From positions 1,550,001-1,614,000 of the forward strand of contig NZ_CP018863.1 of NCBI RefSeq assembly GCF_002849715.1: a DNA stretch of 64,000 nucleotides, written 5' to 3'. The DNA is from Arthrobacter crystallopoietes (GTDB lineage Bacteria > Actinomycetota > Actinomycetes > Actinomycetales > Micrococcaceae). Shown in pieces: positions 1-18,012 of the stretch. A model generated the notes under the pieces. The model saw nothing but the letters and a program-made list of their open reading frames with translations. It made no database searches and was not told where the DNA came from. Both the position numbers and the translations under genes were made by a program. Position 1 is the stretch's first letter; the number at the start of each line of letters is the position of its first letter.

Positions 1-436
1 GGAGAACCACACTCCATCGAGGGATAACTACAGGGTCGCCTGTGGATGCCAATAATCACAAGGATTTTTGTCCACACGAGCCCACAGACCCCAACGGAAG
101 AACTACACATCTTGTGAACAGGCAAATTTCGCCAGCACCCGGGGCGAGAGGCAGTTATCCACAGTATCCACAGACGTTATTAACACTACGAATCCCCTTC
201 AAACAGGCTTTTCCAAATAACATCTGACACTCCTGGTCCAAGCTCGCCGATCCCAGATCCTCTGATCCACTGAAATCACCCTCCGGTGTGAGAATGCCTG
301 TCTGGCGGCTAAGCTTGCACAGAGAATTGTTGTCATTGGACGACAGCAGCCGCCGGTTCTTTCTGCCGGGAAGAGCGGCACAGCTGTAACCACTGGCATT
401 CCCCGGCATGTACGTTGTGAAAGGCGGCACACTTCA
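1..436. other. oriC: dnaA-dnaN intergenic region, partial oriC
   Basis: The stretch before dnaN has no convincing gene. It carries DnaA boxes: TTATCCACA at 155-163, followed directly by GTATCCACA at 164-172 (one mismatch), and TTGTCCACA at 68-76. An AT-richer stretch lies at about 175-225 and could serve as an unwinding element. In actinobacteria oriC usually lies between dnaA and dnaN, so this is probably the dnaN-proximal part of it. dnaA and the rest of the gap lie beyond the left edge, so the full box count is unknown. Confidence 0.65.
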
Positions 437-15170: not shown

Positions 15171-15926
15171 CGTCCACACCTGTGGAAAGATCCGGCCGGA
15201 TGACTTGGCAGAAGGCAGCAGATCGTCTCTGAGTATTGCCCGCAAGTTGTTCACAGTTGTGCACAGAGTTTTCCACAGGCGTGCATAACTCTTTGTCGTG
15301 GTCCGGCTTAAACTTTACGATCACTGTCAGGGCAGTATCCACAGCTGTGGAATTACATGTGTGTAAGTTATCCCCGTTGTGTATAACCTCTGTGGATAAC
15401 TCCACAAGGATCATCGAATAGACAGTAGAACATATATTTGAACGTGTATCCCCACAAAAAGTACGACCTGTGGATAACTAACCGGGGAGACTGTCTTCCG
15501 TCCATACTCCACATCGATGTGTTCAGAGGAGTCCTGGCAAGCGGGCTGAAACTGCGAACCGGCTAGGTGCTGACGGGAATGTTGCAGTTTCCGCGCTGCC
15601 CGTCGACCTGACCTGAAGTCAACGCTCAGACCGCTTCGCCAATCTTGGGCGCTGCCGAATGCCGGGCATAGCTGGCAGGCGAACAACATTCCCTCCGGCC
15701 AGCTGCTAATTCCCGATCGGGACGACCAGCTCGTACCTTATTTTCACATCTGATCGGCGGTTATCCACAGGAGTTATGCACAGCGTGGATAACTTACACA
15801 TCTGTGATTAAGAGGAAACGGCATGTTCGCGGTGGCTCAACGGCGGCAACTATTGGGATACCAAGGCAAAGTTTCCCCCAAAGTTATACACGCCTGTGGA
15901 TAACTCCGTGCACAACTTGTGCAAAC
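15171..15926. other. Dense DnaA-box cluster, candidate origin or DnaA-binding locus
   Basis: This 0.75-kb gene-free stretch contains nine 9-mers that fit TTNTNCACA exactly. Their starts are 15247, 15257, 15269, 15378 (minus), 15391 (minus), 15469 (minus), 15761, 15774 and 15895 (minus); four of these are the perfect TTATCCACA. At least nine more have one mismatch (15181, 15280, 15335, 15346, 15740, 15784, 15884, 15907, 15918). A palindrome CCACAGCTGTGG is at 15339-15350, and an AT-rich patch lies at about 15415-15460 between boxes. The density is that of a replication origin, yet dnaN is 14 kb away. It may be the working oriC, a second part of it, or a titration site. Confidence 0.75.
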
Positions 15927-16830
15927 TACAAATTTTGGTACTTTCGAAACACGATTTACAGCAATTGAGCGCTCCCGACGTGCGAGACTCATCGAATGGC
16001 AGGCAGCGCATGTGCTGACTCCACCGATCCCACACTCGCAGGCGGCGCGGTACAGCACACTGCTGTCGGCAAGCCGTGGGCGCCGCTGCATGCTGCTGCA
16101 CGGCGCAAAGCAGGACAGTGCTGAGATGTCCTGCCGTTCGGGTCGCTTCCCGCCTCCCTCACGGCGGGTGCCGACACCTCAAGCTTCAACGCCATCCTCC
16201 TGCTGGCCGACGAGGAAGTCATTGCAAAGTGCCGGCACAGGGAGAGCGTCCTCGCCGGCTGTAGCTCAGCGCTTACGGTCCATTGAGGATGTGTCTGATT
16301 TCTTGCCCCGCTTGGGAGACCTGGACGTTCCAACGCTGTGGCTGCTCGGCCAGAACGACGAGCTGTTGGGCGCTGGAGAAATGCAGGCTGCGGCTGCGGT
16401 ATCCATACCCGACCAACCGCAATACTTTGCCGCCCTGGCAGGGAAATTCCTCCATGGTCCGTGAGCCCGTAGGGCGGGCAGGCACGGAAAGCACACACTT
16501 GGCCGGCTCGCCCGGGATGGCGCGTAACACTAACGGCAGGGCCGCAGATTGCGAAATATTGGGAAATTTTGGGGAAACATGCCCGCTCCAGCGGTGCCCT
16601 ATCCGGTAACGTAATGAAACCAGTGTCGGCTCGACCAGCCGAAACTAAGACTGTCGCCGACAGGCCCGGCGACGTTGAGCAAGATTTGCCGTGTAATACC
16701 GCCCACCGGCGTCGCCGCGCACAGCCCGACGGCCCGCCGGTAGAGGATCCGCCTCCTGTATGCATGTGCTGTGATGCCCGACCACCATGCGTTCTTCCGG
16801 ACCGCCGGATGCTCAGAAAAGGACATACAA
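15927..16830. pseudogene. Gene-free stretch with possible decayed coding remnants
   Basis: No intact gene is convincing here. From about 16280 to 16464 a plus-strand frame reads like the C-terminal part of an alpha/beta hydrolase, with DFLPRLGDLDVPTLWLLGQ followed by NDELL. A different plus frame just upstream (about 16130-16285) reads PASLTAGADTSSFNAILLL and stops. The two could be frame-shifted remnants of one or two genes, but no start, ribosome site or catalytic nucleophile is present. From 16465 to 16830 I see only the malic enzyme leader. Confidence that this is true decay, not chance, is low. Confidence 0.35.
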
Positions 16831-18012
16831 GTGACTGCTGAAACCGTGAACTCGACGCCGATCGAACTGACTACCGAAGAGATTTTCGCTGCCCATGAGG
16901 GCGGCAAGCTCTCGGTCGGACTGACCGCACCGCTCAATGACAAGCGCGATCTCTCCATCGCCTACACGCCGGGTGTGGCACAGGTCAGCCGTGCCATCCA
17001 CGCGGAGCCGGCGCTGGCCCAAAAGTACACCTGGGCTTCCCGTCTCGTCGCAGTGGTCAGCGACGGCACGGCCGTCCTCGGGCTCGGCAACATCGGTGCC
17101 AGCGCGTCCCTGCCGGTAATGGAGGGCAAGGCGGCGCTGTTCCAGAAGTTCGCGGGCCTGGATTCCATTCCGCTGGTCATCGAGTCCACCGATGTGGACG
17201 AGATCGTCGAAACCGTTGTCCGGCTGCGTTCGAGCTTCGGCGCCGTCAACCTCGAGGACATTTCCGCGCCCCGCTGCTTCGAGATCGAAGAGCGCCTCAT
17301 CGAAGCCCTGGACATGCCGGTGATGCACGATGACCAGCACGGCACCGCCGTCGTCGTTCTGGCGGCCCTGACCAACGCCGCCAAGTTCGTCCAGCGCGAG
17401 CTCTCTTCCCTGAAGGTTGTCGTTTCCGGAGCCGGCGCGGCGGGCATCGCCGTGGCCGAGATCCTGATGACCGCCGGCATCGCGGATGTGACCATTCTGG
17501 ATTCCAAGGGCATCATCCATTCCGGCCGCGAGGACCTCTCCGGAATCAAGGCCGCGTACGCCGAGCGCACCAATCCGCGCGGCACCACCGGCGGCAGCGC
17601 CGAGGCGCTTAATGGCGCGGACGTGTTCGTCGGTGTTTCGGCCGGAACGATTCCGGAAGAGCAGCTCGCCGGCATGTCCGAGGACGCCATCGTTTTCGCA
17701 CTGTCCAACCCGGACCCGGAGGTGCACCCAGAGATCGCCAGCCGGTACGCCAAGGTAGTGGCCACCGGGCGCAGCGATTTCCCGAACCAGATCAATAACG
17801 TGCTGGCCTTCCCCGGCATCTTCCGCGGCGCGCTGGACTCCGGCGCCAAGAAGATCACCCCGGAAATGAAGGTAGCCGCCGCCCAGGCCATCGCCGACAT
17901 TGCCGCCAGCGACCTCAGCGCCGACTACATCGTCCCCAGCCCGCTGGACCCGCGGGTAGCACCCGCCGTCACGGCTGCGGTGAGCGCCGTCGCCGAGGCG
18001 AGCAAGGCGTAA
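16831..18012 (+). CDS. NAD(P)-dependent malic enzyme
   Basis: The 393-residue protein decarboxylates malate to pyruvate, generating NAD(P)H. The catalytic tyrosine lies in SIAYTPGVA near residue 43 and the lysine in MEGKAALF. DDQHGTAVV forms the metal/substrate region near residue 168, and VVSGAGAAGIAVAEI (about 195-209) is the dinucleotide-binding loop. The start is GTG 16831, with AAAAGGA 8 bp upstream; the open frame continues to 16771 but lacks a site. It is the short prokaryotic form without a phosphotransacetylase domain. Malic enzyme here separates the rhomboid gene from crgA, which are near neighbours in mycobacteria. Confidence 0.94.
   Translation: MTAETVNSTPIELTTEEIFAAHEGGKLSVGLTAPLNDKRDLSIAYTPGVAQVSRAIHAEPALAQKYTWASRLVAVVSDGTAVLGLGNIGASASLPVMEGKAALFQKFAGLDSIPLVIESTDVDEIVETVVRLRSSFGAVNLEDISAPRCFEIEERLIEALDMPVMHDDQHGTAVVVLAALTNAAKFVQRELSSLKVVVSGAGAAGIAVAEILMTAGIADVTILDSKGIIHSGREDLSGIKAAYAERTNPRGTTGGSAEALNGADVFVGVSAGTIPEEQLAGMSEDAIVFALSNPDPEVHPEIASRYAKVVATGRSDFPNQINNVLAFPGIFRGALDSGAKKITPEMKVAAAQAIADIAASDLSADYIVPSPLDPRVAPAVTAAVSAVAEASKA

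Follow-up and report, generated by a model that had tools for sequence, protein, structure and literature searches.

A dense group of DnaA boxes in gene-free DNA, some 15 kb from the dnaN side of the origin of Arthrobacter crystallopoietes, raises the question of whether this chromosome carries a displaced replication origin, one half of a bipartite origin or a datA/DARS-like site that binds DnaA. The first-pass annotation of the window (the whole stretch of 64,000 nucleotides that was analysed) had listed these three options after reporting nine exact boxes, four of them perfect, and at least nine one-mismatch boxes. In our recount of positions 15171-15926 we found nine exact boxes (TTNTNCACA), four of which correspond to the perfect TTATCCACA, and 13 one-mismatch boxes. 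For the same 756 bp, a first-order Markov model predicts means of 0.15 exact and 2.40 one-mismatch boxes, with maxima of 2 and 9 respectively over 500 runs, and the box count is thus far above chance. Over the whole window 23 exact boxes were counted versus 2.86 expected, and the four copies of TTATCCACA that lie within 513 bp in the cluster form the densest group among the 39 present in the 5.03 Mb genome. The CCACAGCTGTGG palindrome annotated at 15339 is present. The patch at 15415-15460, described as AT-rich, does reach 65% AT in a region of 48% AT, but this enrichment is only mild.

The cluster as a whole (15247..15917, no strand) is located between a rhomboid-family protease gene (PF01694; 14214..15086, + strand), on whose 3' side it is found in most scorable relatives, and a malic enzyme gene (16771..18012, + strand), which separates it from crgA (PF06781; 18086..18400, - strand). 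The 3' end of crgA points towards the cluster, and in many relatives this gene is the direct right neighbour. The end of dnaA lies just left of the window, and the visible part of the gap on the dnaN side contains two exact boxes, at 68 and 155, in agreement with the first count. Four further exact boxes were observed at -2411 to -1624 relative to the window (L001 238-1025), upstream of the conserved part of dnaA, and possibly belong to the dnaA promoter region.

Four units in mirror-image arrangement make up the cluster, two with a palindrome and two that are tri-boxes only; neither the mirror-image arrays nor the palindrome they contain had been remarked upon in the first-pass annotation. 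Central to the cluster is a composite some 49 bp long (48-50 bp) in which a first box is followed 12-13 bp on by a second box, then by a facing inverted box and finally by an abutting palindrome. Composite unit 1 (15351..15399, - strand) carries boxes at 15391-15399 (TTATCCACA) and 15378-15386 (TTATACACA), a weak facing box at 15368-15376 and the palindrome ACTTACACACATGTAATT (15351..15368, no strand). Its mirror image, unit 2 (15761..15809, + strand), carries boxes at 15761-15769 (TTATCCACA) and 15774-15782 (TTATGCACA), a facing box at 15784-15792 and the palindrome ACTTACACATCTGTGATT (15792..15809, no strand). The two tri-boxes without palindrome, also mirror-imaged, lie at 15255..15290 (- strand; boxes at 15257 +, 15269 + and 15280 -) and 15882..15917 (+ strand; boxes at 15884 +, 15895 - and 15907 -). 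A single perfect box TTATCCACA (15469..15477, - strand) is found outside these units, and an exact box TTGTTCACA (15247..15255, + strand) is situated beside the left tri-box. The symmetry takes the form of two inverted-repeat pairs nested one inside the other, 15255-15290/15882-15917 with 92% identity and 15351-15400/15760-15809 with 84% identity. The latter pair carries the palindrome, which by consensus is no DnaA box. In the relatives, sites with up to two mismatches show spacing peaks at ++13, ++12, +-23, +-11 and +-10 (box orientations and offset), and the majority letters of the family, aligned on the palindrome, read TTATCCACA N4 TTATCCACA N TGTGGATAAC TTACANNNNTGTNATT.

Conservation within the Micrococcaceae was assessed in 66 relatives sampled up to 20 kb from dnaN, nine from the same genus and 57 from elsewhere in the family. 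The scorable loci number 53 (52 relatives and the window); the remaining 14 of the 66 were left uncounted, the rhomboid gene being absent from the stretch or reversed, or the contig too short. A second dnaN-like locus (L088) of the same-genus genome G007 was excluded; the second dnaN-like gene of this genome (G007:C7:70659-71747) displays 51% identity. At least three exact boxes were detected within 1 kb 3' of the rhomboid gene in 48 of the 53 loci and fewer than three in the other five, so the conservation in other Micrococcaceae by which the first-pass annotation had proposed to judge the cluster is indeed observed. The 53 stretches of 1 kb that follow the rhomboid gene contain 277 boxes, versus 0.10 per kb from dnaN to rhomboid. 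Four of the uncounted genomes were sampled again (G010, G016, G026 and G061) and each contained a rhomboid gene with a box cluster: the cluster still follows the gene at 107 kb from dnaN in G010 and at 24 kb in G061, accompanies it on another contig in G026, and in G016 is located further out than the stretch sampled at first. At two other uncounted loci (G040 and G053), box groups were seen but no rhomboid match. Of 61 family genomes, 51 carry tandem box pairs, many of which are situated either in the dnaA-dnaN gap or 3' of rhomboid, and a reversed control pattern gave 2 matches in the same 61-genome comparison. The palindrome, written as NTACAN4TGTNA, is present in 49 of the 53 loci and missing in 4, with 71 copies in 58.3 kb of cluster DNA versus 12 in 991 kb of flanking DNA, and the strict composite is found in 25 of the 53.

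The right-hand neighbour of the cluster changes across the family while the cluster stays. The malic enzyme gene had been taken as a hint of rearrangement. It was detected in the window and in eight of the nine stretches from the same genus (the contig of the ninth is short), and in no stretch among the 57 from other members of the family, part of which stop short of that place. Among the sampled stretches the gene is thus confined to this genus, and we regard it as a side issue rather than a sign of rearrangement. In several genomes of the family, for example G014, G015, G044 and G062, the cluster lies with the rhomboid gene and crgA is located elsewhere. We also considered crgA, and not rhomboid, as the sole anchor of the cluster and rejected it, since the cluster keeps with rhomboid where crgA is elsewhere.

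Outside the family, 60 loci from the order and class were collected, of which 17 could be scored and four more lay at an edge. In the 17 scored loci, box-like sites averaged 3.9 per 900 bp after the rhomboid gene versus 0.35 elsewhere; two loci have no such site after rhomboid and two have one. A tandem pair was detected in 62 of 148 class genomes and not in the other 86. Twenty-four of the 89 pairs lie within 1 kb downstream of a rhomboid gene, in 21 genomes of 9 families; some of the other 65 are located in the dnaA-dnaN gap and others are unexplained. By eye, seven further genomes (families f14, f16, f19, f20, f35 and f41) have the composite next to crgA or rhomboid, with its boxes in a different order in f20. 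Two genomes of f29 and two of f31 show a tri-box that no palindrome abuts, and in one genome of f36 the palindrome lies on the other side. Two further motifs were noted in the course of these comparisons. Seven f31 genomes (G135, G163, G200, G208, G216, G234 and G242) contain a second tandem pair, TTATCCACA-N4-TTATCCACA, on the opposite side of rhomboid at a distance of some 90-140 kb, with TTGTCCACA as its first box in two of the seven; this pair is perhaps the known Streptomyces cluster. Seven f30 genomes (G150, G191, G199, G215, G233, G241 and G250) carry the 22-mer TTATCCACAACCGTTGTCCACA 3.5-4.8 kb downstream of rhomboid.

The composite pattern was also scanned over 84,980 prokaryote species genomes. 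In this pattern the first box and some palindrome positions are fixed, and those columns are therefore uninformative on conservation; the family and class genome sets partly overlap with the species set, so that the respective counts are not additive. The matches listed cover at least 120 loci. All 120 are Actinomycetota by title and they span 23 named genera (Mycolicibacterium being counted with Mycobacterium), including Rhodococcus, Gordonia, Amycolatopsis, Microbacterium, Agromyces, Arthrobacter, Janibacter, Aeromicrobium and Planktophila, where about 0.1 chance matches are estimated under uniform base composition. Of these 120 matches listed, 116 have crgA and/or rhomboid within 1.5 kb, the composite being always on the 3' side in the 193 gene relations that were scored, and the two genes are convergent in 76 of the 77 matches listed in which both were found. 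Mycobacterial loci among the matches listed often have crgA without a detected rhomboid gene and, given that crgA lies apart from the cluster in some family genomes, neither gene alone defines the site. One composite situated at the end of its locus (L254) adjoins an apparent peptidyl-prolyl isomerase gene, a neighbour also present at the usual site. Three others (L271, L273 and L289, from Mycolicibacterium iranicum and two Gordonia) occupy other places, between convergent ORFs as judged by eye. In 89 of the 120 matches listed the composite has no additional exact box within 500 bp, and 19 of the 20 mycobacterial matches listed have a lone composite (the mycobacterial group and a Nanopelagicales group of 6 were chosen by record title). 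Two composites at one locus were found in none of the 120 matches listed; the A. crystallopoietes site is expanded, with its two composites and two tri-boxes in mirror image. Within a set of 93 units of 49 bp taken from the matches listed, with an excess of mycobacteria, Microbacterium and Amycolatopsis, the sequence TGGGGATGA is frequent at the third box. Because this is a common departure from the consensus, we suggest that the third box is deliberately weak.

The palindrome is symmetric with a free centre and could thus be a dimer site. Its strict 18-mer form occurs four times in the 5.03 Mb genome, twice in the cluster. A third copy (G000:C1:3752226-3752243; L159 1327-1344) is located 57 bp upstream of the assumed nrdR start and is flanked by two AAGATGTAGT repeats 31 bp apart, which look like tandem NrdR boxes. 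The fourth (G000:C1:2972435-2972452; L158 1336-1353) precedes the assumed start of a gene of the WhiB family (PF02467) by 96 bp. In family f19, AAATTACAGGTGTGTAATT and AAATGACACTGATGTGATT were each observed in four genomes of one genus, away from the cluster, and are possibly further sites of the protein that reads the palindrome. Several candidate roles and binders were considered and discarded. The NrdR box is ACAC-N8-GTGT, whereas the core of the palindrome is ACAC-N2-GTGT, which argues against NrdR as the binder. FtsR was likewise set aside, as the 25-bp repeat AACCCTAAAGTAAAGGTTGAGGGTA given for it in the consulted part of the source (PMC6683498) differs by eye from the palindrome. An RNA hairpin or terminator does not agree with the pairing: complementarity at palindrome positions 2/17 and 8/11 is no higher than expected and that at 4/15 and 9/10 only slightly above (0.48 vs 0.40 and 0.53 vs 0.40), while a T-run follows the unit in 1 and an A-run precedes it in 2 of the 120 matches listed. 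A promoter for a neighbouring gene was rejected on the grounds that the right-hand neighbour is variable and the usual neighbours face each other; since rhomboid and crgA point towards each other in the common arrangement, no promoter is expected there for either. DnaA itself may be the reader, because the half-site ANTTACA resembles a DnaA box in which CC is replaced by TT.

Could the cluster be the origin? The first-pass annotation had compared it with a dnaA-dnaN gap cut at the edge of the window; counted in full, this gap measures 556 bp and contains 3 exact and 7 one-mismatch boxes, versus nine exact boxes in the 756 bp of the cluster. An origin relocated to the cluster, or having its second half there, would also be consistent with the most AT-rich 40-mer (70% in the cluster vs 65% in the gap). 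The GC skew is not decisive and does not speak for the control-site reading either. In the 204 kb examined, the nearly equal cumulative minima at 19.6 kb (-1094) and 3.3 kb (-1067) flank the cluster at 15.2-15.9 kb, the former being slightly deeper, so that skew does not favour the dnaA-dnaN gap; in 50 family loci the mean skew stays close to zero on the way from dnaN to rhomboid (-0.003, -0.005), and only past rhomboid does it turn positive (+0.014). Against this stands the distribution of the unwinding motif. The gap carries at 155..188 (+ strand) a box-box-TTATTAACACTA motif (boxes at 155 and 164, TTATTAACACTA at 177-188) that is likely to be the oriC unwinding element, and the corresponding combination of a box and TTATTAACACT (CCACA-N4-6-TTATTAACACT) was found in 49 of 67 dnaA-dnaN gaps but in none of the 53 rhomboid clusters, a test that covers this kind of unwinding element. 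The motif of the gaps looks like the box and DnaA-trio arrangement that the consulted part of a study on Kocuria rhizophila describes in the dnaA-dnaN gap, where it places the origin (PMC12500396), although the strict trio repeat is short here; three consecutive trios were present in no gap or cluster by the strict rule applied. For Mycobacterium tuberculosis too, oriC function is reported for the 3' flank of dnaA in the part of the source consulted (PMC2607554). Actinobacterial oriC in the dnaA-dnaN gap shares with the cluster its intergenic and partly tandem DnaA boxes; its tandem spacing is mostly 12 bp (by eye), and many of its boxes have an adjacent TTATTAACACT, of which the cluster has none. 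Moreover, the cluster accompanies rhomboid and not dnaA, even 107 kb away from dnaN, and the composite stands alone in most of the matches listed. Given that the clusters are devoid of the box-plus-TTATTAACACT motif and track rhomboid rather than dnaN, both a relocated and a bipartite oriC appear most improbable.

The boxes might otherwise serve for plain titration, sequestering DnaA once the origin close by has replicated, a role proposed for box clusters outside oriC in Bacillus subtilis and Streptomyces coelicolor. Their number and their proximity to the origin in the family would suit such a role, and there are precedents: in the consulted parts of the sources, removal of six B. subtilis clusters leads to early initiation (PMC5295017) and the B. 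subtilis and S. coelicolor clusters are called analogous to datA (PMC10950094). However, titration requires no fixed order or spacing and no abutting palindrome, and the distance to dnaN extends to 107 kb in one relative. The 89 of 120 matches listed that have no further exact box within 500 bp would offer too few sites, which suggests that titration is not the whole story, and we consider it unlikely that the boxes do nothing else. The gene arrangement invites yet another explanation, in which DnaA bound between convergent genes would block read-through from both directions. Convergence in 76 of the 77 two-gene matches listed and, by eye, around the three composites found at other places would agree with such a transcription stop, and DnaA-dependent termination is reportedly the subject of a published paper. 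Nevertheless, a terminator would need neither the same gene pair across the class nor a fixed order, T-runs and A-runs are rare and the palindrome shows little covariation, and a convergent gap by itself would shield a binding site from transcription. A bidirectional stop therefore seems improbable, more so than titration.

We conclude that the cluster is probably a conserved chromosomal DnaA-control site, shared across much of the class Actinomycetes, and not an origin. Of the three options that had been proposed for it, the datA/DARS-like one is favoured by the ordered tri-box, the conservation at rhomboid and the absence of the origin motif. The order, spacing, palindrome, conservation and location of the units were computed; binding of DnaA is suggested by the identity of the boxes, and a partner protein, an effect on DnaA and a role in timing are likewise predictions from sequence. 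A site that changes DnaA activity is preferred because titration fits the rich clusters of the family but not the lone units found elsewhere. In such a site, DnaA would load onto the strong first box and a facing pair of DnaA molecules would form on boxes 2 and 3, while a dimeric partner on the 18-bp palindrome would shape or gate the DnaA complex. This complex might then alter DnaA activity, either by nucleotide exchange, the mechanism of DARS, or by hydrolysis, that of datA, and thereby help to time initiation at the dnaA-dnaN origin. More tentatively, the rhomboid-crgA gap might hold a class-wide counterpart of DARS or datA whose palindrome is read by a cell-cycle regulator that also acts ahead of nrdR and whiB, or by DnaA itself in one nucleotide state; if this were true, a shared regulator would tie replication timing to nucleotide supply and division.

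The on/off switching of actinobacterial DnaA is poorly known and, to our knowledge, no datA or DARS has been described in actinobacteria apart from the Streptomyces cluster. The DnaA-box cluster of S. coelicolor was reportedly described by Smulczyk-Krawczyszyn in 2006, and the clusters of this species are named H69, H24 and D78. If one of these clusters corresponds to the rhomboid-crgA gap, the Streptomyces locus is known; even then, our searches would leave the composite and its palindrome as a new element. A partial literature search returned no paper that treats DnaA, crgA and rhomboid together, and crgA was absent from the papers on DnaA boxes, DARS or datA among the matches listed. A short element of fixed order, occupying one gene gap in genera that range from Mycobacterium to Arthrobacter and Planktophila, offers a precise target, in which three boxes and one palindrome can be altered singly. 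The palindrome could also serve as bait for a putative regulator, whose other targets in this genome may include nrdR and the whiB gene.

It is to be noted that the composite resembles several known systems without coinciding with any of them. Two intergenic stretches of Escherichia coli MG1655, which by their position we take to be DARS1 and DARS2, both contain two tandem boxes 12 bp apart and a facing box 14 bp further. The DARS core, according to the consulted part of PMC8682772, consists of three boxes of which I and II lie head-to-head and hold a pair of ADP-DnaA that loses its ADP, and DARS2 needs IHF and Fis beside this core. Three DnaA boxes, two of them head-to-head, are also found in the cluster, and the composite shares with the DARS1 and DARS2 core its tandem and facing boxes in non-coding DNA. 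The spacing is different, with offsets of 12-13 and 23 here versus 12 and 26, and the facing boxes are 1-2 bp apart in the composite versus 5 bp in DARS. The two DnaA molecules would consequently be rotated differently, and with facing boxes 3-4 bp closer the composite is not a DARS by the letter. Where DARS2 has accessory proteins beside its core, the composite has an abutting 18-bp palindrome instead of IHF and Fis sites and, unlike DARS, it is usually less than 20 kb away from dnaN among the family members sampled. E. coli datA is described, in the part of the source consulted, as non-coding DnaA boxes acting with a second DNA-binding protein, IHF (PMC4585315); the datA stretch that we examined has one + box facing one - box, as in the composite, but box order and spacing differ. 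The clusters of B. subtilis and S. coelicolor consist, like this one, of DnaA boxes outside oriC thought to restrain initiation, and the site examined here has several such boxes outside oriC and near it. An ordered composite with a palindrome is not described for them in the parts of the sources consulted, and the review that reports the effect of removing the six B. subtilis clusters states, in its consulted part, that clusters with significant roles were not identified in this species (PMC5295017). Set beside these systems, the composite is best read as a putative DnaA-regulating site of actinobacteria that combines the core topology of E. coli DARS with a candidate palindrome-binding partner.
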